Shown here: in pieces, positions 29,951 through 42,944 of the stretch | Numbering within the stretch: position 1 is the stretch's first letter | How the letters are laid out: each line of letters begins with the position of its first letter | Source: Plantactinospora endophytica | GTDB lineage: Bacteria > Actinomycetota > Actinomycetes > Mycobacteriales > Micromonosporaceae | Direction: 5' to 3' | NCBI RefSeq assembly: GCF_016862915.1 | Contig: NZ_BONW01000002.1 | Span: forward strand, 1-64,000 | Length of the DNA: 64,000 nucleotides | The notes under the pieces: generated by a model | The model's input: the letters and a program-made list of their open reading frames with translations, nothing else | Told to the model about the DNA's origin: nothing | Database searches by the model: none | Position numbers and translations under genes: made by a program

Positions 29951-32900
29951 GTGAGCAAGCGGCCGAAGACATCAAGCCCGATCCTGTCGCGTCTCCGCTG
30001 GCCGGTCGCCGGCCGGCTGCGCGACATGCCGATCTGGTCGAAGCTGGGTCTTATCATGATCGCGCCGACCATCGCGGTCGTCGTGGTCGGTACGACAAGC
30101 ATCGTCGACCACATGGAGACGTTGGACGACGCGAACCGGGCGCACAACCTGGCGACGCTCGCCCAGACCTCCGGCAAACTCGTGCACGACCTGCAGGACG
30201 AGCGGGCGGGCGCGGTCCTGCTGCTCGGCTCGCGGAACGAGGCCGCGAAGAAGACGAACCGCGACGCCTACAGCAAGGTGCACCCCGAGGTCGACAAGGC
30301 CAAGGGGCCGTATTCCGAGCGCCGGGCGCAGCTCGACGAGCTGCCGGCCAACTTCGACGCGCTGCTCGGCCAGATCGACCAGGGCCTGGCCGACCTGCCG
30401 GGGATCCGCAGCCAGGTCATCAACTCCAAGCTCAAGCTGACCGACGCGGCACAGTCGTACGAGGGTCTGATCAACGACCTGCTGAACATCCGGGACCTCG
30501 CCTCGCAGCTCGCCGGCGATTCCTCGCTGAGCGACCGGATGCGGGCCGCCGCCGCCAACGCGCGCGGCAAGGAGTTCCTGTCGATGCGCCGGGTCGTGGT
30601 GCACCGCGCCCTGATCGACGGTCGGCTGACCGCCGCGTTGCAGACCGACTACATCGCCACCGAGACCGGTCAGCAGCAGGCGTTGCAGACGTTCAAGGCG
30701 ATCGCCACCGGTCCCGAGTCCGCTTTCTACGACGAGACGGTCACCGGCGCCGACGTGCGTGAGGTCGACAGCTACGGCGGCTGGATCCGGGGTCGGACCG
30801 ACGAGGGCATGGCAGACGCCCCGTTCGACGCCGAGGACTGGGACTCCGCCATGGTCGGCAACGCCGGGCTGATCCGCGCGGTGGAGGGCCGGCTCGACGC
30901 CGACGTGCTGACCGAGGCCAGTGCGCTCCGCGACGACGTGCAGCGGCAGGTCTTCCTGGAGACCGGTCTGCTGCTGAGCATGCTGCTGCTGGCGGTGCTC
31001 TTCGCGTACCTGGTCGCCCGCTCGATGGCCCGCTCGCTGCGCGAGCTGCGGCACGGCGCGCTCTCCATCGCCCAGTACGGCCTGCCGCACGCGGTGTCCC
31101 GACTGCGTGACCCGCAGGTGACCGCGCAGATGTCGCCCGTACAGGTCGCCAACCAGATCGCCGAACCGCTACCGGTGCGGAGCAAGGACGAGTTCGGCCA
31201 GGTCACCGAGGCGTTCAACGCGGTCCACCTGGAAGCCGTCCGGACCGCCGCCGAACAGGCCGCCCTGCGGGCGTCGGTCGCGACGATGTTCGTCAACCTG
31301 GCCCGCCGTTCGCAGATCCTGGTCGACCGGCTGATCGGCCACCTGGACCGGCTGGAACGGGGCGAGGAGGATCCCGACCGGCTGGCCGAGCTCTTCCAGC
31401 TCGACCACCTGGCCACCCGGATGCGGCGCAACGACGAGAACCTGCTGGTGCTCGCGGGTGCCGACTCGACCCGGGTGCAGCGCGAGCCGGCGGCACTGAT
31501 CGACGTGCTCCGGGCCGCGCAGTCCGAGGTCGAGCACTACACCCGGATCGAGTTCGGCATGGTCGACCGGGATCTCGAGGTCCAGGCCAGCGCCGTCAAC
31601 GACCTGGTGCACCTGGTCGCCGAGCTCTTCGACAACGCCACGGCCTTCTCGCCGCCGGACTCGCAGGTGATGGTGGAGGCCCGCCGGGTGGGTGACCGCG
31701 CCACCCTGTTCGTCGAGGACCGGGGCATCGGCATCACCGCCGAGCAGTTGCAGGACCTCAACGAACGGCTCGCCACGCCACCCGCCGTCGACGTGACCGT
31801 CTCCCGGATGATGGGTCTGGTCGTGGTCGCCCGGCTGGCGTCCCGGCACGGTGTCAAGGTCGAGCTGCGGCCCGGCCCGGACCGGGGCACGGTAGCCGAC
31901 GTCACGCTGCCCACCTCGATGCTGATCCCCCGGGCCCTGTCCGGCCGGACCCAGCAGCCCGGTGGTCTTCCCCCGCTCCCGCCGGAGCCGGCCGCCCGTC
32001 CGGCGCTCGGCGCCCCGCTCGCCCTGGAGAGCGGCCCGGCCACGCCGTCGCCCGCACCGACCTTCGGCGACCGCGACCGCAGCCGGGACGTCTCGCCGCT
32101 CGGCCGGCCGTACGAACCGGCCATGAACGGCGGCGGGCACACCAGCGAGCCGAGCCAGCCCCGGGACATGCCGGCGTGGTCCGACCTGACCGGTGCCCGG
32201 GCCGGCCGCAACGGCAGCGACCCGTTCACGCCGAGGCTGCCCAACGGGCACGACATCGAGCCGCTGCCGCAGCGGCGGGCCACCGAGCAGGACGCGTCGG
32301 GTCTGTCGACCAACGAGACGACGATGTCCGGCTTCATCCCACGGCAGCGTCCGGTGACGCCGGAGCCGCAGCCGAGCGGGCTGACCGCGCTGCCGCCGGT
32401 GTCGGCACCGCCGGTCTCGGCACCGCCGGCCGGGCAGCCGCCGGTCTCCGCGCCGCCGTTCGGCCTGACCTCGCCGCCGCAGGCGCCGCCACCGGCACCG
32501 ATGATGCCTCCGGCAGCGCAGCCGCAGGCCCCGGCGTTCAACGCGCCGCCGGCCTGGCCACCGGTGAACGCGCCGGAGCGCGAGGCCGCCGCGCCACCCG
32601 TTCCGGAGCGGCTGGCCGCGGCGCTGGACATGACCGCCGAACTGCCCCGGATGGCCCGGACGCCCGCCACCGAGGCGTCGGCGAACGTGGAGGCCCGGCC
32701 GAAGTTCGCCGACGAGACCATGGAACTACCGATCTTCCGCGAGTTGGAGTCGGCCTGGTTCCGCACCCGCCGGAAGCCAGAGGAGACCGGCGGTCAGCCC
32801 CAGGGAGCCGGTACGGCTACCCAGACGACCGGCCAGGCCGTCGCGGTGGACACCGCCGTTCCCGACGCGGGCCAGGCCGGAACCGCAGCAACGACAGGCA

Positions 32901-33337
32901 ACGCGGCGGCGCACGGGCCGGGGCCTGGCGGCCAGCAGCCGGCGGGTCGGCCGGTCACCAACGGCACCGGTCGACCGGGTGAGCCGGCAGGCGGTTGGCG
33001 TACGGCTGCGGACGACGGTTGGCGGGCAGCCATGGCGGCTACGACAGCCGCCAGGACGACGGATGTCCAGACGACTCAGACCGGACTGCCCAAGCGGGTA
33101 CCCATGGCGCAGTTGGTGCCCGGGGCCGTGGAGAAGCCGACGACTTCGGTGCAGCGTCGGACGCCGGAGGCGGTACGCGGGTTGCTGTCCGCGTACCACC
33201 GTGGGGTGCAACGTGGCCGCACGCATCCGACGGACGACCAGTCGACCAACCCGGAGGGGACTCCGGCAGGGCAGCAATCCCCGCAGGCCGACGTGGGCCC
33301 CGCGAACGCAAGCGGCCAGAAGGAGCATGAAGGATGA
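29951..33337 (+). CDS. Conservon sensor kinase (CvnA type) with nitrate/sulfonate-sensing domain
   Basis: 1128 aa. One membrane helix at about 32-51, an extracytoplasmic NIT-type sensing domain with [15 protein letters not shown], a second helix at about 336-358, HAMP, then the helical block [14 protein letters not shown] and [20 protein letters not shown] HATPase follows with ELFDNAT (N-box, near 560) and EDRGIGIT (G1, near 587). From about 655 a Pro-rich region of some 270 residues leads to a conserved tail: SAWF (near 934), DDGWRAA, LPKRVP (near 1045), LVPG and YHRGVQRG. In Streptomyces such kinases head conservons and act with CvnB, C and D. GTG start. Its last bases overlap cvnB (ATGA). 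Confidence 0.93.
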
Positions 33338-33738
33338 CATCTACGCAGGATCTCGGTTGGCTGTTGGCCAACTTCGCCGATCGTGTGCCCGGCGTCGCCC
33401 ACGCGATTGCCGTCTCCGCGGACGGCCTGCTCCTCGCGTCGTCACGGGACCTTCCGCGCGACCGGGCGGATCAGCTCGCCGCGATCGCGTCCGGCCTGGT
33501 CAGCCTCACACAGGGGGCGGCGCGCTGCTTCGAGGGTGGGGCGGTGTTGCAGACGGTCGTCGAGATGGACAATGGTTTCCTGTTCCTGATGTCCATCTCC
33601 GACGGATCGTCCTTCGCGGTCCTCGCCGCCCGGAGCTGTGACGTCGGGCAGGTGGGTTATGAGATGGCACTGCTCGTCGACCGGGTGGGTGACGCGTTGA
33701 CGCCGCCACCCCGGGCCGCCGCGGGGATGCTGAGCTAG
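33334..33738 (+). CDS. Conservon roadblock/LC7 protein (CvnB type)
   Basis: 134 aa, a single roadblock/LC7 (MglB-like) domain: [34 protein letters not shown] and [19 protein letters not shown]. Such proteins regulate or scaffold small Ras-like GTPases such as the CvnD partner two genes on. The start overlaps the kinase stop by four bases, implying coupled translation. Confidence 0.93.
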
Positions 33739-33842
33739 GTGGTACCCGGCCGGTGCGCCTCGCCGGCTGGTGCGACGACAATGGAACAATGACGAACTCC
33801 AGGCTTTGAGTCTCGGGCACGACGAGAAGGGGGTGAACGGCG

Positions 33843-34223
33843 ATGATGGCCGAACGCGACGAGCCGACGGGCGCGCTGGTAAGGCCATACGCCGTTACCC
33901 GTGGTCGTACCAGGCCGAGGCTCGACATCGCGCTGGAGGCGCTCGTCGAGACGACGGTGCGCGGTCGGTCCGCCGGTAACGGCAATGGCGGCCAGGGCCG
34001 GGAGCATCAATACATCGCCGCGCTGTGTGATGGTCGGCTGCAGTCGCTCGCGGAGATCGCGGCGCGGATGCAGTTGCCGCTCGGAGTGGCTCGGGTCCTG
34101 ATCGCCGACATGGCCGCCGATGGCCTGGTGGCGGTGCACGAACCGACAATTCTGGACGACTCAAACGACGCGGTGGGCACTGAACTGCTGGAGAGGGTGC
34201 TGAGTGGACTTCGCAGGCTCTGA
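33843..34223 (+). CDS. Conservon DUF742 protein (CvnC type)
   Basis: 126 aa with a DUF742 winged-helix-like domain: LVRPYAVTRGRTRP, HQYIAALCDGRLQSLAEIAA and LPLGVARVLIADMAADGLVA. The last part resembles a DNA-binding wing, but conservon DUF742 proteins are thought to act in a membrane-associated complex. The start may be either of two adjacent ATGs (33843, 33846), with AAGGGGG upstream. The 3' end overlaps cvnD by 20 bp. Confidence 0.92.
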   Translation: MMAERDEPTGALVRPYAVTRGRTRPRLDIALEALVETTVRGRSAGNGNGGQGREHQYIAALCDGRLQSLAEIAARMQLPLGVARVLIADMAADGLVAVHEPTILDDSNDAVGTELLERVLSGLRRL

Positions 34224-34812
34224 CATGTCGCACCGCCCAACGGCCGGGCGCGTGACATCGGCGAAGATCGTCATCGCCGGTGGCTTTGGCGTCGGCAAGA
34301 CAACACTGGTCGGCTCGGTCTCGGAGATCACGCCGCTGACCACCGAGGCGATCATGACGTCGGCTGGTGTGGGTGTCGATGACACCCGCCAGGTGCCGGG
34401 CAAGACGACCACCACGGTCGCGATGGACTTCGGTCGGATCTCGATCGACCGGGACCTCATCCTTTACCTGTTCGGCACCCCGGGCCAGACGCGGTTCTGG
34501 TTCATGTGGGACGAACTGGTACGGGGCGCGATCGGTGCGGTCGTCCTGGTCGACACCCGTCGGCTGGCCGACTGCTTCGCGGCCATCGACTTCTTCGAGC
34601 ACCGGCGGCTGCCGTACCTCGTGGCGATCAACTGCTTCGACGGTATGCAGTACCACGACCCGCAGGACGTGCGGGACGCGCTGGCGATCTCGAGTGACGT
34701 GCCGGTCGTCGCGTGCGACGCCCGGAACCGGGAGTCGACCAAGCACGTGCTGATCTCGCTGGTCGAGTACGTGCTGACCATGCGGCGCTCGCGCGCCGTC
34801 GCCCCGGCCTGA
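34204..34812 (+). CDS. Conservon GTP-binding protein (CvnD type)
   Basis: 202 aa. P-loop GGFGVGKTT near residue 27, G3 in LFGTPGQTRFWFMWDEL (DxxG replaced by GTPG), and NCFDG in place of the usual NKxD. These variations are typical of the MglA-like CvnD family. It would be the switch of the CvnABCD complex. GTG start inside the 3' end of cvnC. Convergent with the binding-protein gene at 35438. Confidence 0.93.
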   Translation: MDFAGSDMSHRPTAGRVTSAKIVIAGGFGVGKTTLVGSVSEITPLTTEAIMTSAGVGVDDTRQVPGKTTTTVAMDFGRISIDRDLILYLFGTPGQTRFWFMWDELVRGAIGAVVLVDTRRLADCFAAIDFFEHRRLPYLVAINCFDGMQYHDPQDVRDALAISSDVPVVACDARNRESTKHVLISLVEYVLTMRRSRAVAPA

Positions 34813-35437
34813 CCGGCGCGGTACGTCGCCCGTCGGGAGGCCCGGCCGTAGGCCGGTGCCGTCACGCCCGACGCGGTCGCCCGGCCCGCGCCGGGTAGAC
34901 GGCTGCCCGTACTCCGGCGGCGACGGCGCGGTACGCGTGCTGCACCGTCAGCCGAGTCCGCCCGTGCGACGCCACGCCACCGTCTCCATGGCACCGCCCC
35001 CACGGCACCGTCCACTGTCGTGACAGCGGCGGACGGCGACAGGTGTCGGCGCCATCCGCTCCGGCGGTCACCCACCCGGCCCGATCCGCTGCCGTTTGAT
35101 CGGGGGCCAGTCCCGGTCCACGTTCGGCGGCCGGCAGGCCGCATCCCCGCACCGTAGGCCCGTGACGGTTTCCCGGGTCGCAGACGGTGGATCGGACGAC
35201 TCCACATCCCCGGCAGGCCAGTACCGGCGGACCGGCGAAGGTTGTCCAGAGATTCCGTCGACCGGCACGAGCCGGCGCAGCGGCACCAGCCGGCCCGGCA
35301 CAGCGGTACCAGCCGGCACAGTGGACCCGGCGACACCGGCAGACCCGACGACGGGCAGACCCGGCGCCCAGGCAGACGCGACGACACAGGGCAGTGGACC
35401 GGCGCGCGTGGCAAGGCCGGCACAGTGGACCGAGAGG
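34813..35437. other. 625-bp convergent gap with low-complexity repeats
   Basis: No supported gene. A short hairpin CCGGCC-GTA-GGCCGG (34842-34856) may end cvnD. From about 35260 the sequence is built from variants of GCCGGCACAGTGGACC; that 16-mer occurs exactly at 35312-35327 and 35416-35431, 7 bp from the stop of the next gene. Confidence 0.5.
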
Positions 35438-36652
35438 TCAGGAGACCCTGCTCCAGGAGCCGGAGACCACGGTGAAGACCCCGAGCGAGTCCGGCTCCAT
35501 CCCGCCATGCCGGATCGGCGCGAACGAGTACGCCCCGGCGATCCCCTCGGTGATCTGCGTACCCAGGTAGGCGCGCAACCGGCCACGGTCGACGCTCTTG
35601 CCGAGCCGGGCCGCGTTGACGACCAGCCGTAGCGAGTCCGAGGCGTACGGCGCGAAGCCGCTGAACGAGCCGTGCAGGTGGATGTAGCGGTAGATGAAGT
35701 CCCGCCGGTCCAGCCCGGCCGTGGTGGTGTTCGTCAGCGCCGAGCTGCCCAGCGAGCCGGGATGCACGACGTACGCGCCCTCGACCGCCGCCGCGTTCGC
35801 CTCCGACAGGGTGTCCTCGGCGACCGCTCCGGCGTCGAAGAAGATCCGGCCCTCGAAGCCGGTCTGCCGCAGTGCGCGGGCTGCCGTACCGGAGAACGGG
35901 GCGGTTCCCCAGACGACCACCGCCTCGGGGTCGGGGCCGGTCACCTTCCGGGCCGCCGGCCGGAAGTCGGCGTTCTCCTCCTCGGGCAGCCTCGTCACCC
36001 TGACGAGGTCGACGTCCACGGCCCGCAGAGCCGCTGTGAGGGCCCGTACGCCCGAGTCGCCGTGCGCGCCCGCCGCGGCCAGCAGGCCGACCTTTTCGAG
36101 GCCCTGCGAGCGAATCAGCGCAGCCAGCGCCCGTGCCACGTCGCGGGCGTCCGGGGTGAGCTTGAAGATGTACGTCCGTTGCGCCAACGGCACCGTGAGG
36201 TTGTCGGCGGCAGCGTAGGAGATGAACGGCACCTGCTGCTGCTGCGCGATCGGGATGATCGCCAGTGAGGTCTCGGCGAGGCAGCCGCCGACCAGCGCGT
36301 GTACGTTCTCCCGGGTGGCCAGCTCGGTCGCGTGCTGGGCGGCGAGCCGTGGCTCGCTGGCGTTGTCCCGGATCACCAGCCGGAGACTCCGGCGCAGGTT
36401 GCCGACCTGTACGCCGCTCTCGTTGAGCTTGTCAGCCGTGATCTTCAGCGCGCGTTCCTGGAGTACGCCGAGTGCCCGGCCGACGCCGGTGAGTTCGAGA
36501 CTGGCGCCGACGACGAGTTCCCGTGCGCCGGGACCGCTCGGTCCGGAGTTGCCCTCGTCGTTCCGCCCGCAGGCGGCGATCAGGGTGGTGGCCGCCGCCG
36601 CGAGGAGGCCCCGGCGGCTCAGCGTCCACGCCTCGACTGCCGATTCGGCCAT
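35438..36652 (-). CDS. ABC-type amino-acid/urea-like binding lipoprotein next to the conservon
   Basis: 404 aa. The signal region SRRGLLAAAATTLIAAC has a twin Arg-Arg and a lipobox (IAAC), so Tat export with lipid attachment is likely. The mature part is a type 1 periplasmic binding fold of the branched-chain amino acid class: LVVGASLELTGVGRALG, ALVGGCLAETSLAIIPIAQQ and FISYAAADN. No permease or ATPase genes are near, so it may act as a ligand sensor rather than in transport. Its place beside a conservon suggests, without proving, that it informs the NIT-domain kinase. ATG with GGAGG 7 bases upstream. Confidence 0.87.
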   Translation of the reverse strand: MAESAVEAWTLSRRGLLAAAATTLIAACGRNDEGNSGPSGPGARELVVGASLELTGVGRALGVLQERALKITADKLNESGVQVGNLRRSLRLVIRDNASEPRLAAQHATELATRENVHALVGGCLAETSLAIIPIAQQQQVPFISYAAADNLTVPLAQRTYIFKLTPDARDVARALAALIRSQGLEKVGLLAAAGAHGDSGVRALTAALRAVDVDLVRVTRLPEEENADFRPAARKVTGPDPEAVVVWGTAPFSGTAARALRQTGFEGRIFFDAGAVAEDTLSEANAAAVEGAYVVHPGSLGSSALTNTTTAGLDRRDFIYRYIHLHGSFSGFAPYASDSLRLVVNAARLGKSVDRGRLRAYLGTQITEGIAGAYSFAPIRHGGMEPDSLGVFTVVSGSWSRVS

Positions 36653-37143
36653 CGTGCCACCTCCATACGCTGGTCGTAGGTGTCGCCTACGGTCCCGGGG
36701 TATGTTGGCGGCCCCTGCCAGGCGTCGTCAACTCCCGTCAGTGTGGTGAGAAACACCAGGTAGACGTACATCTGAGGCTGATTGGCCAGTCAGCCGACGG
36801 GGTCTGTCCGGACGGACCGCCCGGTCGGTCGACCGGTTGGTCCGGACAGCGCGGAGCGTGTCCAGCCGGCCACGCGCAGCCGCGCCGACCTGCGAGGACA
36901 TTCGACGGACGGTGCGGGCACCAGCCGGCCACCACTCCCGCGATCGTTGCCCCGCGCCGACCGGGCCACGGCACGTAGACGACGACCGTCCACGGCACGT
37001 AGATGAGGACCGGTCCACGGCAGGTAGATCTGGTGGGCACCGGTCCCGGTCGGTCCGCTGATGCGAAGACCCGCACCGGCGCCGCCCGAGGATTCGGACG
37101 GCCGGTGCGGGTCTCGGTGGAAGAGCGCCGCCGGGTCGGTCGG
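36653..37143. other. 491-bp gap with direct and inverted repeats
   Basis: No supported gene. An inverted repeat CTGTCCGGAC/GTCCGGACAG lies at 36804-36813/36840-36849 and encloses CGGTCGACCG. Three consecutive units of 24, 25 and 30 bp starting CCACGGCA occur at 36966, 36990 and 37015. The promoter of the binding-protein gene must lie near 36660-36760. Confidence 0.5.
36966..37044. repeat. 24-30 bp tandem repeat, 3 units
   Basis: Units begin CCACGGCACGTAGACGACGA (36966), CCACGGCACGTAGATGAGGA (36990) and CCACGGCAGGTAGATCTGG (37015), each ending in ACCGT or ACCGGT. Confidence 0.7.
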
Positions 37144-39480
37144 TCAGGAGCGGTAGCCGGCGGAACGGTACTCGTAGTCGAGGTTGTCGGCCCGCTCGTC
37201 CGGGTCCCGGCTGAAGTCCCAGCCACCCGCGGCCTCCCGGCCCGGCCGACCGCCGACGGCGTAGCCGCCGATCTCCTGGCCGCGCCGCCAGCCCCGGAAG
37301 TAGCCGGTGGTGTGTTCGGCGATCCGGGCCGCGTCACGCACGATCCGCAGTGGCCGCTCGTCCCGCAGCGGCGAGCCGGGCACCAGGTTGGCCTGCGGCA
37401 CCCGCTTGGGCAGGCCGGCGTTGGTCGAGGCGCCGACGGAGGGCTTCGCCGCCTGCTGGGCGGCCTGCCAGCCGCTGTCGGCCTTCGACGCCCACTCGAT
37501 CTCGTCCTCCTCGGACTGGCCGGTGAACCAGGCGGACCTCACCGCGCCGAAGATCAGCAGGTCGCCGTCGCCCTCGTCGGACACGGGCGGGGCGCTCGGC
37601 TCGACGCCGCGGCGGGGCAGGCCCGACCCGGTCGCGGTCGGCTCCTCCCGATCCACCAGTCGCAGCGGCGGGTTGTCGGTGGGAAGGCTGGCGCGCAGGC
37701 CACGGTCCGCCAGCGGCGGCGGCGGTGGCGGCTCGACCAGGCGCAGCGTGGGCGGCTCCGGCGGCAGGTCGTCCGCCTGCCACGGCGGAGTCACCCGCCC
37801 GTCGCCGGGTGCCGGGCTGACCGGTGCGTCACGCTGGCCGGACTGCCCACCCGGGTATCCCGGATAGCCGGACCCGGTCGACCGGGCGTCCTGCTCGTCG
37901 TCGGAGTTCATCAGCGGCCAGTTGGCCCGGGAACCGGGCGGCGGTGCCGGCGGCTCGGGCCGGGCGGCCGGCAGCGAGACGGTCAGGCCGGCTGCGGAGA
38001 TGGTGCCGGGACGGGACGCCGGGTCCCCGTTGGTCTTCGGCCGGGGTGTGATCGGCGTCGGCCGCCGCTCGTTGCGGGCGCTGTTGATGGCCGCAGTGGT
38101 CAGGGTGGCCCGGAACGGCTCGCCGGCCTCGGCGGGCGGGATCGGGCTGCGCTGCGCCGGCGGCATCGGAGTCATCCCGGGCGGCGGGGGCGGCGGCGCG
38201 GAAACCGGCCGGTTCGCCATCGGGTCGCCCTGGTACGCCGGTGGCGCGGAGGAGGGCATCGCCGAGCGGGACTCGCGGGGCGGGCCGGAGACCGGTACGA
38301 CCGGCATGGAGAGCGTGGCGGCCGGCGACAGCGGCGGCGCGGACGAGGGGGTGACCGGTGGCGGCGCCATCGGCGGCGGCGCGACCGGTGACGGCGCGAC
38401 CGGAGGCGGTCCCATCGGCTGGGGGGTGGCCGGGCCGTTGCCGGCCGCCGCCGGCTGGTGCCGGGTGCGCCGCCCGGAGCTGGGTACCGGCTCGCGCGGT
38501 GCACCGGGCAGCCCGGTGCCGGCCGGCGCCGACGTGGGTACCTCGGCGGCACTGCGTCGCCCGGCCCGCCGGCCCGGAGCCGACGGCGTCGTGACGACCC
38601 GGGCGCTCAGGGTGGCGACCAGCGCGTCGCAGCCGGCGTCGCAGGCGCGTACGGCCGCGACCGCCTGCCGTACGGTCTCCGCTGCGGCGGAGGTGAGGGC
38701 CTTGTTGGTGGCGGGGCCGCGCCGGGGCGTCTCCGCGATGGCGACCCGCAGCGCGGTGACCGCCTCGGTGATGACGTCGGCCTCGGCGACACCGTCGGCG
38801 GCGAGGTGCGCGGCGATGGCGTCGGTGGCCACCGAACTCTCCCGGCCACGCGCACTCGTCCCGCCGAGCATGCCCGGCTCGGGCAGCGCGTCCAGTACGG
38901 CCAGCGAGACCGGCTCGGCCGGGTCGGGGTACGCCCGCAGCGCCGCCGGGTAGAGCTCGCGCAGCACCTCGCGTAGCGCCACGGCGGCGGCGTGCCGGCC
39001 GTTGGCGAGTGCGGCGTGCGCGGCGAGTACCGGCTTGAAGCTGATCAGCTCACGCGGCGGTGGCAGGGTGGCCGCCGAGAGCGCACCAGCCTGCAACGCC
39101 CGGGCGAGCCCGACGGCCCGGCGCTCGGCCGGGGCGGACTCCCGCTCCTCGGCCGACTCGTCGTCGGCGAACCGTTCGGCGAAGTCGTCGACGGAGTCGT
39201 CGTCTGCGATGACCAGGGGACGACCGGCGGCGCTCAACAGCGAGGTCACCATGTGGTCGTCGCTGTCCGCCGCCACGGCCGCGCCGCTCGGTCCGCTGCT
39301 CCGTTCGACGAGCACCGTGCCGAGCTGGGCGTACCCGGCCGGGTCGTCGGTGATCTCGCAGACATGGAGCAGCCTGCCTGCGTCGTCGACCACCGCGGAG
39401 GTCAGCGTCGCGCCGGCCGAAGCCGGCCGACCCGCCGTATCCGCAGAGGCCAGACCGCAGTACACCCGCACGAGCGCCAC
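37144..39480 (-). CDS. IS110-transposase-like domain fused to a CvnA-type C-terminal tail
   Basis: 778 aa from the GTG at 39480, chosen for the GGGAGGAGG 8 bases upstream. Residues 1 to about 290 read like an IS110 DEDD transposase N-domain: AVVDDAGRLLHVCE, then VTSLLSAAGRPLVIADDDSV, GLARALQAGALSAATLPPPR and VALREVLRELYPAALRAYPD. The catalytic acidic positions look lost (CGLAS for the usual G-I-D-V; ERRAVGLAR for K-T-D-x-x-D-A). The Tnp_20 part is absent. A Pro-rich linker of some 330 residues follows. The end repeats the conservon kinase tail: SAWF (near 648), ADSGWQAA, LPKRVP (near 690), LVPG and YFRGWRRG. No membrane segment. Inference: a domesticated domain acting with the conservon proteins. 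The acidic protein gene lies 62 bp upstream in the same direction. Confidence 0.8.
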   Translation of the reverse strand: MALVRVYCGLASADTAGRPASAGATLTSAVVDDAGRLLHVCEITDDPAGYAQLGTVLVERSSGPSGAAVAADSDDHMVTSLLSAAGRPLVIADDDSVDDFAERFADDESAEERESAPAERRAVGLARALQAGALSAATLPPPRELISFKPVLAAHAALANGRHAAAVALREVLRELYPAALRAYPDPAEPVSLAVLDALPEPGMLGGTSARGRESSVATDAIAAHLAADGVAEADVITEAVTALRVAIAETPRRGPATNKALTSAAAETVRQAVAAVRACDAGCDALVATLSARVVTTPSAPGRRAGRRSAAEVPTSAPAGTGLPGAPREPVPSSGRRTRHQPAAAGNGPATPQPMGPPPVAPSPVAPPPMAPPPVTPSSAPPLSPAATLSMPVVPVSGPPRESRSAMPSSAPPAYQGDPMANRPVSAPPPPPPGMTPMPPAQRSPIPPAEAGEPFRATLTTAAINSARNERRPTPITPRPKTNGDPASRPGTISAAGLTVSLPAARPEPPAPPPGSRANWPLMNSDDEQDARSTGSGYPGYPGGQSGQRDAPVSPAPGDGRVTPPWQADDLPPEPPTLRLVEPPPPPPLADRGLRASLPTDNPPLRLVDREEPTATGSGLPRRGVEPSAPPVSDEGDGDLLIFGAVRSAWFTGQSEEDEIEWASKADSGWQAAQQAAKPSVGASTNAGLPKRVPQANLVPGSPLRDERPLRIVRDAARIAEHTTGYFRGWRRGQEIGGYAVGGRPGREAAGGWDFSRDPDERADNLDYEYRSAGYRS

Positions 39481-39542
39481 GGCGTCGTCCTCCTCCCGAG
39501 ACACAAGTGGTGTGCCAAAGACTGATGCTCCCTGGTAAGGGG

Positions 39543-40505
39543 TCAGTCGCGCCAGTCCACGGCGGCAGAGATCTTGCCGATAATCGTGCGCCACCCGAGA
39601 CTTGCGGTTTGTGCCCCGATTTTCTTGAGTCGCCGCCGACCCCGGAATTTGCCGAGGCCGCCGGCTTCGGTCGCCCGGAGCGCCTCGTCGAGGTCGTCCA
39701 GGCTGGAGCCGGAAGAAAGCATATCCAGTACGGCGGGAAGCCGGAGCGCGTAGGCCAGGTCGCGGGCCACCTCGCCGGCCTCGATGAGCAGCGTCGCGTC
39801 CCAGACGTCGTGCCCGCCGCGAAGGTTCTCCACGACGAGGTCTAGCTCGTAGGAGTCCTCGTCGAGCGGGGCGACGTCGGCCGGCGTGATCCGCTCGGCG
39901 AGCCGGTCCCAGGTGTCCAGACCGGCCAGATCGTGCGGCGCGCCGGACTTGACGAATGTGACAAGTGCCTCAGGACTCTTGAAAAGCAGGAGCTTGCCGC
40001 GGTGGGTGAGGAAGGCCGGTACCTCGTCGGTCTCCTCCTCGATTTCCTCGGCCTTTTCGGCGTCCGCGTCGGCGTCCTCGGCCTTGCCGTCCCGCTCCGC
40101 GTCCTCGCGGTCGGCCTCGGCGAACTGGTCGGCGAGCTCCTCGTCGAGGATCACGACCGTCTCGTCGTCCTCGTCCTCGTCCACCTCGGCCTGCCGCGAC
40201 CTGCTGGCGAAGAGGTCGTCCTGCTCCCGGTCCTCGATGTCGGTCGGGGTCAGTTCGCTCGCCGGGCGGTACGTCCGCAGGGTGAAGCCGGAGCCGCTGG
40301 GCAGGGCGATCTCGACCGGATCGATCCGGGTCTCCGCCCAGAGCGACCGGTCCGTGCTGCCGGACGTCGCCGCGCCGTCGGCGTCGGTGTCGTCGGTGGT
40401 TTCCGAGGAGCCGGCGTCGACCTGCCCGGGGTCGACAGCCCCGTCGCTGCCGGCGGGCTCGTTGCCGGGCTCGGTGTCGGGCCGGTGGGACGACTGGCGG
40501 GCCAC
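39543..40505 (-). CDS. Acidic protein of unknown function, co-directional with the IS110-like gene
   Basis: 320 aa from the GTG at 40505 (GGAGG 5 bases upstream). The N-terminal half is very acidic and low-complexity (runs such as VDEDEDDE and DADADAEKAEEIEEE). The C-terminal half is folded-looking: FLTHRGKLLLFKSPEALVTF, HDLAGLDTWDRLAERITP, LPAVLDMLSSGSSLDDLDEA, ending with a basic RGRRRLKKIG and WRTIIGKIS. I do not recognise the family. The acidic/basic layout suggests a protein- or nucleic-acid-binding adaptor. It is probably transcribed with the gene 62 bp downstream. Confidence 0.78.
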   Translation of the reverse strand: MARQSSHRPDTEPGNEPAGSDGAVDPGQVDAGSSETTDDTDADGAATSGSTDRSLWAETRIDPVEIALPSGSGFTLRTYRPASELTPTDIEDREQDDLFASRSRQAEVDEDEDDETVVILDEELADQFAEADREDAERDGKAEDADADAEKAEEIEEETDEVPAFLTHRGKLLLFKSPEALVTFVKSGAPHDLAGLDTWDRLAERITPADVAPLDEDSYELDLVVENLRGGHDVWDATLLIEAGEVARDLAYALRLPAVLDMLSSGSSLDDLDEALRATEAGGLGKFRGRRRLKKIGAQTASLGWRTIIGKISAAVDWRD

Positions 40506-40642
40506 GCTGACCTCCGTGTGCGCTCGATATGGGCACCCGACCCGGCGAGGGAGCCGGCGGATCGGTGACTCTGCGCACACACCCTAGTAGGCCGGCGGCG
40601 GGCGTGGATGCCGGCACCCCGTTGGACTTCCGTGCATATATT

Positions 40643-40657
40643 AGTAGTCTTGCTACT
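40643..40657. promoter_or_regulatory. Candidate PadR operator
   Basis: AGTAG-TCTTG-CTACT, an inverted repeat starting just after the minus-10-like TATATT (40637-40642) and ending 1 base before the PadR ATG. Its position suits autorepression. Confidence 0.5.
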
Positions 40658-40658
40658 T

Positions 40659-41006
40659 ATGAACGCCCAGGCGCTGCACGGCCATCTCGATGCGCTGCTG
40701 CTCGCGGTGCTGGAGCGCGGTGCGCTGCACGGGTACGCCATCATCGAAGCGCTCCGGGCCCGCAGCGGCGGCGTACTCAACCTGCCCACCGGGACCATCT
40801 ATCCGGCGCTGCGCCGGCTGGAGCGGGCCGGCTACGTCAGCAGCGCCTGGAGCACCGTCAACGGCCGGGAGCGGCGGACCTACGAGCTGACCGGCGCCGG
40901 GCAGCGGGCCCTCGCGGGCGAGCGGTCCAACTGGCAGGAGTTCAGCTCGACGGTGGGGCAGTTCCTCGGCGGCGGCACGCTGCCCTCGCCCGGCACACCT
41001 GCCTGA
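40659..41006 (+). CDS. PadR-family transcriptional regulator
   Basis: 115 aa. A winged helix-turn-helix of the PadR type: LLAVLERGALHGYAIIEALR, LNLPTGTIYPALRRLERAGY and the wing TVNGRERRTYELTGAGQRAL. No long C-terminal dimerisation domain, as in short PadR-s2 forms. The ATG at 40659 has no ribosome site and only about 10 bases of likely leader. Its 3' end is caught up in a 35-bp tandem repeat. It converges with cydC; the target is unknown. Confidence 0.9.
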   Translation: MNAQALHGHLDALLLAVLERGALHGYAIIEALRARSGGVLNLPTGTIYPALRRLERAGYVSSAWSTVNGRERRTYELTGAGQRALAGERSNWQEFSSTVGQFLGGGTLPSPGTPA

Positions 41007-41085
41007 TCCGACGCGCTGCCCTCGCCCGGCACCCTGGCTGATCCGGCGCGCTGCCGTCGCCTGGCACCCCTGGCTGATTCGGCGC
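40979..41085. repeat. 35-36 bp tandem repeat across the padR 3' end
   Basis: Three units start GCTGCC(C/G)TCGCC at 40979, 41015 and 41050; a fourth start (GCTGATTCGG) is at 41086. The first unit includes the last codons and the stop of the PadR gene, so later copies look like duplications of the gene end. Confidence 0.85.
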
Positions 41086-41117
41086 GCTGATTCGGCCCGT
41101 CGTGCCAGGTTGGCGGC

Positions 41118-42944
41118 TCAGGAGCCGACGGAGAGGTGGTCGCGTTCCGCGCCGGCCTGGCGCAGCCACTGGTCGCGGTACCAGCCGGACTGCTCGACCA
41201 ACTCGGCGTGGCTGCCCCGGTGCGCGATCCGGCCCGCGTCGAGCACGATGACCTCGTCGTACCGGTCCAAACCGGACAGCCGGTGGGTCACCAGCACCAC
41301 CGTACGGTCCGGACCGGCGTGTGCGGTCGCCGAGGCGAGCACCCGGTCGGCGGCACCGGGGTCGAGACCCTCGGTCGGCTCGTCCAGCACCAGGATCCCG
41401 GCCGGGGCCGCGAGCAGGGCTCGGGCCAGCAGCAGGCGTTGGCGCTGCCCGCCGGAGAGCTGACCGCCGTCCTCGCCCACCACCGTGTCCCAGCCGGCGG
41501 GCTGCTGGCGTACCCAGTCCAGCAGGCCGGCCGCCCCGGCCGCGCCGGCCAGTTCCTCCTCGGTCGCCCCGGTCCGGCCGAGCAGGAGGTTCTCCCGGAC
41601 CGAGGCGTGGAAGACGTGTGCCTCGGCGAGCAGCCCGCCGACGATCCGGGGCAGCCGTTCGGCGGGCTGGTCGGCCAGGTCGACGCCGTTCAGGGTGACC
41701 CGGCCGCTGTCCGGCCGGACCATGCCGGTCAGTACGCCGAGCAGACTGCTCTTGCCCGCACCGCTCGGCCCGACGACGGCGATCCGGCTGCCCGCCGGCA
41801 GGTCGAGATCGATCCCGTCGAGCGCGGGCGGGCCCGATCGGCGGTACCGGAGACGCACCCGCTCCACCCGGCAGTGCCACCGGCCCGCGACCTTCTCCGA
41901 GTCTGCGGCTCCAATCCCGACGGTCGGCTCCGGTGCGTCCGGCGGGCGGCGGTCCGGCGACTCCGGGCCGCCGTCGGCGCCGGTCAGCAGGTCGGCCACC
42001 CGGGTCAGGCCGGTACGCAGCCGGGTCCACTGCCGGGCCGCGCCGACCAGCGCCAGGGCGGCCTCGACGGCGGCGAGCGTGCCGACCCCGAGCACCCCGA
42101 CGAGTACGCCGTCGACGCCGGCCCGGAGCGCCACGGTCAGCACGGCGGCGCTGGTCGCACCGGCGACCAGGATTCCGAGACCGTCCACCGCCCAGCCCAG
42201 CGCCGCCGTCCGGCGTTCCAGCCCGGCCAGTTCACGGGCCCGGGCGTCGGCCCGGTCCAGTGCCGCCCGGGTGGCGCCGAAGGCGGCCAGGTCGGCGGCG
42301 CCGGAGGTCAGGTCCACCGCGTCACCGGCGAGCGCACCGCGCAGCGGCGCCACCCGGGCGGCGGTACGCCGGGTCAGCATCGCCGCCAGCGCCGGCAGCA
42401 CCACCCCGGCCAGCAGCAGCCCGCCGGCCAGGGCCAGCCCGGCGAGCGGCTCCACGGCGGACGCGCCGAGTACGGCGAGCAGGCCGACGAGCGCGGCGGC
42501 CACCCCGGGGACGAGTACCCGGAGCAGCAGGTCCTGCACCGCCTCGACGTCCGAGACGAGCCGGCTGAGCAGGTCGCCGGAGTGCCGCCCGGCGGAGTTC
42601 TGTGCGGCGCGGTGCTGTGCGGCGCTGCCGCGCCGGGCCGCCAGCGCGGCGAAGACCCGGGCGCGGACCTCGGTGACGACCCGCAGCGCGGCGTCGTGCC
42701 CGGCCAGCCGTTCGGTGTAGCGCAGCACGCCTCGGCTGATCGCCAGCGCGCGTACCGCGACGATCGCCACGGTGAGCGTGTCCAGCGGTGGGCGGCCGGC
42801 GGCGCTGACCAGCAGCCAGGTCGCGGTCGCCAGCAGGGCGAGCCCGGCGAGTTCGGTGCCGGCGGCGAGCAGGCCGGCGCCGAGCAGCCGACCGAGGTAC
42901 GGCCGGGCCAGCCGCCAGACGACCCGTTCCGGTCGCAGCCTCAC
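41118..42944 (-). CDS. cydC: Thiol reductant ABC exporter subunit CydC
   Basis: 608 aa, a fused membrane/ATPase half-transporter. Six membrane helices in the first 320 residues (TWLLVSAAGRPPLDTLTVAI), then an ABC domain with GPSGAGKSSLLGVLTG, signature LSGGQRQRLLLARALL and LVLDEPTEGLDP. With CydD it exports glutathione or cysteine-type thiols needed to assemble cytochrome bd. The GTG start overlaps the cydD stop (GTGA). cydAB are not in this window. Confidence 0.93.
   Translation of the reverse strand: MRLRPERVVWRLARPYLGRLLGAGLLAAGTELAGLALLATATWLLVSAAGRPPLDTLTVAIVAVRALAISRGVLRYTERLAGHDAALRVVTEVRARVFAALAARRGSAAQHRAAQNSAGRHSGDLLSRLVSDVEAVQDLLLRVLVPGVAAALVGLLAVLGASAVEPLAGLALAGGLLLAGVVLPALAAMLTRRTAARVAPLRGALAGDAVDLTSGAADLAAFGATRAALDRADARARELAGLERRTAALGWAVDGLGILVAGATSAAVLTVALRAGVDGVLVGVLGVGTLAAVEAALALVGAARQWTRLRTGLTRVADLLTGADGGPESPDRRPPDAPEPTVGIGAADSEKVAGRWHCRVERVRLRYRRSGPPALDGIDLDLPAGSRIAVVGPSGAGKSSLLGVLTGMVRPDSGRVTLNGVDLADQPAERLPRIVGGLLAEAHVFHASVRENLLLGRTGATEEELAGAAGAAGLLDWVRQQPAGWDTVVGEDGGQLSGGQRQRLLLARALLAAPAGILVLDEPTEGLDPGAADRVLASATAHAGPDRTVVLVTHRLSGLDRYDEVIVLDAGRIAHRGSHAELVEQSGWYRDQWLRQAGAERDHLSVGS

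Follow-up and report, generated by a model that had tools for sequence, protein, structure and literature searches.

A domesticated IS110-type domain that has lost its catalytic acids is fused to a CvnA-type tail in Plantactinospora endophytica and its relatives

In this work, we describe a gene of Plantactinospora endophytica (Micromonosporaceae) that joins the N-terminal part of an IS110 transposase, devoid of its catalytic acids, to a tail of the type found at the C-terminus of the conservon sensor kinase CvnA. The gene lies at 37144..39480 on the minus strand of the stretch analysed (the first 64,000 nucleotides (nt) of contig NZ_BONW01000002.1, hereafter the window), just where an earlier note made from the sequence alone had placed it, and the peptides quoted there are present. 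It is homologous to IS110, has lost the catalytic acids, carries the fused tail, occurs almost constantly as a single copy and is kept by selection; most probably, it descends from a transposase and not the other way round. That its N-terminal domain (N-domain) is a catalytically inactivated descendant of an IS110 transposase is in our view nearly certain. The reading of the whole gene as a captured, disabled IS110 fused to a CvnA tail, with a kinase-less CvnA-like adaptor as its product, we consider probable. The fusion suggests that a family of soil actinobacteria has put a dead IS110 part to use as an additional input to a bacterial G-protein system.

IS110 homology of the N-domain and loss of the catalytic acids

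The homology to IS110 becomes visible only through diverged orthologues and profiles; direct scans of the window protein were uninformative. The whole protein matched nothing in Pfam at E <= 10 and gave no transpos_IS110 match in NCBIfam, and its N-domain scanned alone reached 13.1 bits (E 0.08) with PF01548, far below the gathering cut-off of 29 bits. In whole-genome searches of 12 genomes, PF01548 exceeded this cut-off at the orthologues of G012 (42.8 bits) and G050 (32.4 bits) and stayed below it at three more orthologue places (G040, 23.0; G014, 15.2; G035, 15.0 bits); for the orthologues of the remaining seven genomes, no PF01548 match was found among the matches listed. As single proteins, locus L112 scored 39.0 bits and L122 (from G050) 28.6 bits, the latter just under the cut-off. 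PF01548 was the most frequent family among 24 N-domains (10 at E <= 0.1, with two other families matching one member each), and the only Pfam family to reach its cut-off in the scanned orthologues. The NCBIfam transpos_IS110 model covered residues 8-264 of L112 with 32 bits, below its cut-off of 140 bits, and did not match L122.

Profile-to-profile comparison supported this assignment. An hhalign run of 24 N-domains against 14 IS110 transposases (L127 included) gave 99.7% probability over 267 columns, the coiled coil included, and one against five more remote IS110s gave 96.3% over 146 columns, while three control alignments of unrelated sequences from the same locus (partner, roadblock and tail) gave 0.1-2.2%. 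Since the IS110 sets used in hhalign came from matches of the same N-domain profile, Pfam serves as the independent test. This profile of 24 sequences matched 28 of 246 Actinomycetes genomes, three of which belong to the own family and carry the fusion; the others include IS110 transposases of about 400-450 amino acids (aa) with best E values of 1e-22 to 6e-30, and the strongest actinobacterial IS110 match was a 274-aa frame (E 3e-31).

The N-domain was also found to match the RuvC-like/RNase H fold. A template-free structure model of medium confidence (mean predicted local distance difference test score 62, predicted template modelling score 0.47) contains a long helix at residues 257-295, and in a Foldseek search against PDB its ranks 1-6 are IS110 recombinases at E 0.004-0.016; no match fell below E 0.001, and the global template modelling scores of the top six are low (0.27-0.29). 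The profile and fold comparison with PF01548 and RuvC-like domains proposed in the earlier note has thus given a match on both sides, the structural one at these modest E values.

Two results pull away from IS110 descent. A sequence search of PDB with the orthologue profile returned ISCro4 at E 0.19 and IS621 at E 0.3, neither significant, and it put an unrelated heme-binding protein (E 0.18) just above both. The top rows of the VIA comparison are Spt6/Tex YqgF domains, ranked above IS110; VIA identity cannot separate the two, since that of the IS110 rows (20% over 113 residues) is no higher than that of the best Tex row (18-20% over 118-119). A rival reading takes the N-domain for an ancient RuvC-like domain of cellular origin (YqgF/Tex/RuvX type). 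However, PF01548 is the sole Pfam family above its cut-off in the scanned orthologues, the hhalign match spans 267 columns including the coiled coil, and Foldseek places IS110 recombinases first, which makes this supposition very improbable.

Coming back to IS110 descent, we compared the catalytic positions in 117 of the 119 orthologue loci (L076 is too short and L128 was omitted by the script; some of the 117 are near-copies, and the window protein is L089) and in 19 IS110 transposases. All 19 comparators keep D, E, D and D intact. In the orthologues, the first D is replaced by A, T, V or S at 117/117 loci, the third is kept in 3/117, and the fourth is R in 107/117 and D in 2. The second position (E60) is D in 112/117, E in 1 and another residue in 4, so that one acidic position is conservatively kept, a point against complete inactivation. 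Thus, the first acid is lost at every compared locus and the third and fourth at nearly all, while the second is mostly D. In a few diverged members, acids persist close to these positions: L111, L113 and L121 have K-D-x-x-D, whereas L109 and L120 have E-D-x-x-D. The exact register in these five is therefore uncertain. In IS621, mutation of any one of the four acids is described to abolish recombination (PMC11208158).

The recombinase part is missing as well. None of three full-length proteins, namely that of the window, L112 and L122, matched Transposase_20 (PF02371), which carries the catalytic serine, at E <= 10; in the true IS110 transposase L127 this domain starts at residue 284. The retained IS110 part continues through the coiled coil past the end of PF01548 and stops about where Transposase_20 would begin. 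The earlier note had read the first 290 residues as an IS110 DEDD domain with its acids replaced and its recombinase part gone; all of this is borne out, the losses are common to the 117 loci, and homologues with intact DEDD residues and active insertion, which it named as the contrary case, were not seen.

Copy number, distribution and selection

The fusion gene was matched in 60 of the 61 Micromonosporaceae genomes, the window's own included, and nearly always once; G038 (780 contigs) gave no match. At most one match was present in 58 of the 61, and second matches occur in G002, G055 and G059; the one that was read (G055, locus L127) is the true IS110 transposase mentioned above. Relatives of the protein were collected from 80 loci, Micromonospora and Salinispora among them, the nearest named one being that of Plantactinospora mayteni (90% identical). 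The orthologue in Verrucosispora sioxanthis (L065:6001-8317) is split into two frames, perhaps by a sequencing error.

The alignment of the orthologues revealed three zones: the N-domain (about 297 residues) is strongly conserved, the tail is conserved too, and the Pro-rich linker between them is variable. In accordance with this, the ratio of nonsynonymous to synonymous substitution rates (dN/dS) in seven pairs was 0.10-0.30 for the N-domain, 0.24-0.50 for the linker and 0.08-0.35 for the tail, the linker exceeding both ends in each pair. All 19 diverged orthologues in the alignment carry the same tail as the window protein. A single copy, a conserved place and purifying selection together characterize the gene as a domesticated host gene, and the suggestion of the earlier note that a dead copy had been retained by selection fits both the low dN/dS and the presence in 60 of 61 genomes.

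IS110 homology and lost acids would equally fit an unremarkable IS110 insertion or a degenerating remnant that does nothing for the host. Yet the gene is nearly always single-copy, has constant neighbours and a long open frame, shows low dN/dS across the family and carries a tail common to the window protein and the diverged orthologues, so that this explanation is hardly tenable. Several copies at varied sites, as expected of IS110-type mobility, were not observed; an active or recently inserted IS110 was rejected on the strength of the copy number, the constant neighbours and the lost acids. A single-sequence plasmid search at E <= 1e-5 gave no match, IS110 transposases included, and is therefore no evidence of immobility, being too insensitive to find even IS110. 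The window's genome (G000) contains real IS110 pieces too: eight PF01548 matches, some covering part of the profile, on contigs C50, C51, C52, C58 and C64 (L081-L088).

In a tree of 43 rows, 24 orthologues stand on one side of a branch and 19 IS110s on the other with support 100/99. Because this tree cannot be rooted, the direction of descent, from IS110 to the fusion, is argued from how narrowly the fusion is distributed and how widely IS110 is. Among the 246 Actinomycetes genomes, the domesticated form was found only in the three of its own family. The other class-wide matches whose frames were read look like IS110 transposases or fragments thereof; the frame of a weak match (L177, G077) runs antisense to a different transposase and lacks the tail. 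This search scored at most 10 candidates per genome, so that strongly diverged orthologues outside the family may have been missed, and frames were read for part of the weak matches.

The CvnA-type tail and the gene neighbourhood

The features of the locus are collected in Table 1. Just upstream of the GTG start of the fusion gene lies a ribosome-binding-like GGGAGGAGG (39497-39489), and aligned relatives that begin at the same position have ATG there. The linker contains 26% Pro (residues 301-636).

Table 1. Coordinates of the fusion gene, its parts and its neighbours in the window
Feature	Position	Strand	Basis or remark
Domesticated IS110-CvnA-tail fusion gene, 778 aa	37144..39480	minus	Open frame; GTG start at 39480
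RuvC-like domain of the IS110 DEDD type that lost its catalytic acids (residues 1-177)	38950..39480	minus	PF01548 in orthologues, hhalign, Foldseek, VIA, catalytic columns
Helical/coiled-coil region as in IS110, residues 178-297	38590..38949	minus	hhalign, NCBIfam transpos_IS110 on L112 (below cut-off), modelled helix
Variable Pro-rich linker, residues 298-636	37573..38589	minus	Alignment, composition, dN/dS
CvnA-type tail, residues 637-739	37264..37572	minus	Orthologue-tail profile matches the neighbouring CvnA and CvnA-size open reading frames genome-wide
Neighbouring conservon: cvnA, with NIT, HAMP and HATPase domains and the same tail	29951..33337	plus	Pfam; tail match
cvnB, roadblock/LC7	33334..33738	plus	PF03259, 81 bits; best match of the adjacent-roadblock profile in the genome
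cvnC, DUF742	33843..34223	plus	PF05331
cvnD, small GTPase	34204..34812	plus	PF03029
Acidic SatS-related partner gene	39543..40580	minus	62 nt upstream of the fusion gene; NCBIfam SatS, PDB SatS chains

A profile of 25 orthologue tails matched the CvnA of the window at E 4e-16, and an alignment of 24 tails identified three further open reading frames (ORFs) in this genome at E 6e-17 to 2e-14 and a weak one at 1e-3. In 79 genomes of the class, this one included, the tail profile gave 43 matches in 23 genomes; all but the target sit on ORFs of 872-1450 aa, with the sole exception of a 193-aa frame. We examined 33 tail loci with about 1.5 kb of flanks, the target among them. At 25 of the 32 non-target loci, the ORF also matches the HATPase region of the window CvnA (for the other seven, no such match was found in the examined flank). 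A same-strand roadblock match is present in the flank at all 32 loci. The automatic adjacency rule accepts 30 of them; at the two that fail it, the roadblock match lies within a longer open stretch, in one case (L183) 69 nt downstream of the tail match. The window protein itself has no NIT, HAMP or HATPase match in Pfam, all of which are present in the true CvnA.

Diverged orthologues repeat this arrangement: at 14 of their 19 loci, a same-strand roadblock gene comes next, within about 140 nt of the fusion gene (two of these genes were confirmed with Pfam). The profile of these adjacent roadblocks was also run on eight genomes from the window's side of the family. In all eight, its top match stands about 3-5 kb from the fusion gene and is encoded on the other strand; for the window, this match is cvnB. 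The "signalling-type tail" of the earlier note can thus be retained as a signalling tail and specified as a CvnA-type tail that, in diverged relatives, is accompanied by an adjacent roadblock gene. The idea that the window's genome keeps a dedicated roadblock gene at another site was discarded, as none of its 10 roadblock matches is closer than the adjacent CvnB. Likewise, a derivation of the tail from the neighbouring CvnA is unsupported, because two other CvnA-size ORFs of the genome score higher.

Both neighbours announced by the earlier note, the acidic partner gene and a conservon, were found, the latter complete at 29951-34812. A conservon on the opposite strand accompanies most of 99 orthologue loci (matches to cvnD at 72, cvnA at 70, cvnC at 69 and a cvnB-type gene at 75, six of the last being the adjacent same-strand roadblock), short contigs counting as misses. 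Of the synteny with conservons that the note proposed to check in Micromonosporaceae and Streptomyces, the former is thus seen at most loci; the latter was not borne out, the domesticated form having been seen in its own family alone among the 246 genomes of the class-wide search. Between the fusion gene and the conservon lies a gene for a periplasmic binding protein (PF13458, 35438-36652), matched at 29 of the 99 loci.

The SatS-related gene is even more constant: at a distance of up to 2 kb, it precedes the fusion gene in the same orientation at 98 of the 99 orthologue loci (the exception is L113), with a median gap to the fusion gene of 67 nt and a gap above 160 nt in 3 of the 98. The true start of the window's copy is probably internal, near 40505-40511, where the relatives become alike; its product is acidic (25% D+E over 285 residues). 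It scores 36 bits with the NCBIfam SatS equivalog, far below the cut-off of 700, as do three relatives (35-41 bits), and the partner profile finds the SatS C-domain chains 6dnm/6drq in PDB at E about 7e-19. The partner profile matches 11 of 148 genomes of the class, two from the own family and nine from the same order; next to SatS in these nine, the N-domain profile found no IS110-like gene in the examined flanks. In L109, L120 and L121, the next gene upstream of the partner contains TYKLYxGGKFPRSESGR, and its product may be of the aldehyde dehydrogenase type.

The constancy of this partner allows a different view of the locus: the fusion may do its main work with the SatS-related protein, as a co-chaperone or targeting scaffold for export, the link to the conservon being historical or merely regulatory. 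SatS is described as a chaperone of protein export whose C-domain adopts a new fold (PMC6333443), and 98 of 99 loci with this neighbour compare with 14 of 78 with an adjacent roadblock. However, elsewhere the CvnA-type tail sits on CvnA-size ORFs followed by roadblock genes, bar the one 193-aa frame, and with 36 bits against a cut-off of 700 the same function for the partner is not assured. We regard the export scaffold as unlikely.

According to another view, the fusion is an RNA-binding regulator, that is, a nuclease-dead RNA-guided factor holding RNA on its RuvC-coiled-coil part, like the exapted TnpB regulators. Both the RuvC-like domain and the coiled coil are retained, the helical half of the model appears in VIA to resemble Nop56/58, which are RNA-protein scaffolds, and IS110 and Nop proteins are reported to have a common architecture (PMC12045711). 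Against this stand the loss of the C-terminal transposase part and the median gap of 67 nt to the partner gene, which leaves little room for an upstream guide RNA; moreover, the Nop matches may be a generic match of long helices, as the tool itself warns. An Rfam scan of 34500-41500 gave no match, the 491 bp downstream of the fusion gene being checked against Rfam alone, with no dedicated RNA search; this database does not necessarily include bridge RNAs. Altogether, an RNA-binding regulator appears quite improbable.

A possible second input to the conservon GTPase switch

Returning to the kinase-less CvnA-like adaptor, we propose the following course of events. An ancestor of the Micromonosporaceae would have captured a gene of an IS110-family transposase, which lost its catalytic acids and the Tnp/serine domain, and a Pro-rich linker would have joined the disabled transposase to the C-terminal tail of the conservon sensor kinase CvnA. 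The retained coiled coil would make a dimer, as the coiled coil of IS621 is described to do (PMC11208158). The dead RuvC-like face would recruit a partner, much as the inactive RuvC-like domain of Nop5 recruits fibrillarin (PMC12045711); candidates are the SatS-related protein encoded next to it and nucleic acids. The adjacency of the genes suggests a roadblock protein as the docking site of the tail: in the diverged members, their own downstream roadblock, with the gene order SatS-like / IS110-tail / roadblock, which is probably ancestral, and in the window lineage the CvnB encoded by the adjacent conservon. The fusion would hold or release the roadblock protein, a putative GTPase-activating protein (GAP), and so provide a second, non-membrane input to the CvnD GTPase switch. 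Since MfpD, a homologue of the roadblock protein CvnB, functions as a GAP (PMC13343842), the fusion would thereby set the state of the GTPase.

An adaptor whose tail contacts the roadblock GAP and whose dead IS110 dimer brings the input seems to us slightly more probable than not, and a regulatory role of the putative adaptor is plausible. The more specific idea, that the IS110 RuvC-coiled-coil dimer replaces the conservon sensor kinase and transmits a signal from a nucleic acid or an export chaperone to the GAP, is possible albeit rather unlikely.

Several observations weigh against the adaptor. The conservon is encoded on the strand opposite to the fusion gene. A roadblock gene is adjacent at 14 of the 78 loci with room downstream; as all 14 fall among the 19 diverged loci, none of the 59 non-diverged ones has it, and it is absent in the window lineage. 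In six of the 19 diverged loci (L109, L112, L113, L120, L121 and L122), no cvnC or cvnD was found in the examined flanks. Within this genome, two other ORFs score higher with the tail profile (65 and 58 bits) than the neighbouring CvnA does (56 bits). The terminal regions of CvnA8 are reported to be unstructured (PMC13343842), and the tail may bind something other than a roadblock protein.

Comparison with known systems shows what is shared and what is new. With the RNA-guided IS110 transposases (IS621, ISCro4 and the actinobacterial GIDWAE-type), the fusion shares the order and length of the RuvC-like and coiled-coil parts over about 267 columns, as well as the fold according to Foldseek. It differs from them in its replaced acids, in lacking Transposase_20 with its serine, in the extra linker and CvnA tail and in its immobility as judged from copy number and synteny; no bridge RNA was seen, as far as Rfam and the gap length were checked. 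With CvnA it has in common the C-terminal tail, the Pro-rich linker and, in 14 of the 19 diverged loci, a roadblock gene that follows directly, just as cvnB follows cvnA, whereas an IS110-derived head takes the place of the membrane sensor kinase. Nuclease-dead TnpB regulators (TldR) are another case of a transposon nuclease that became a host regulator and lost its catalytic residues; unlike the fusion, they derive from TnpB and not from IS110, keep a guide RNA and have no signalling fusion. Nop5 of archaeal box C/D snoRNPs (small nucleolar ribonucleoproteins) likewise carries on a coiled coil an inactive RuvC-like domain that recruits fibrillarin (PMC12045711), yet Nop5 belongs to another lineage and has kept its RNA-binding C-terminal domain, which the fusion has lost. 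CvnF and CvnE are also extra conservon proteins that may supply an input, but these are GAF or P450 proteins encoded after cvnD and described with no mention of a transposase, a word absent from the main text of that paper (PMC13343842). As for SatS, the partner shares with it the C-domain recognized in 6dnm/6drq and differs in consisting of one SatS-like unit plus an acidic region, far below the cut-off of the mycobacterial equivalog.

Exapted transposon nucleases are known as RNA-guided regulators, and exapted transposases in general are a known kind. In the titles and beginnings of abstracts of open-licence papers on IS110 domestication or on links between conservons and transposases, no report of such a gene was found; as far as these searches go, an IS110 transposase built into a conservon-type protein is new.

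The fusion gene links three poorly understood things, namely conservons, SatS-type chaperones and the exaptation of IS110. It lends itself readily to testing the way in which the tails of conservon proteins reach the GAP, which a 2026 paper presents as still largely unexplored (PMC13343842). If the proposed reading is true, the Micromonosporaceae have wired a dead RNA-guided transposase domain into Ras-like G-protein signalling. The N-domain may still bind RNA or branched DNA, in which case the fusion would provide a nucleic-acid-sensing input to a bacterial small GTPase.

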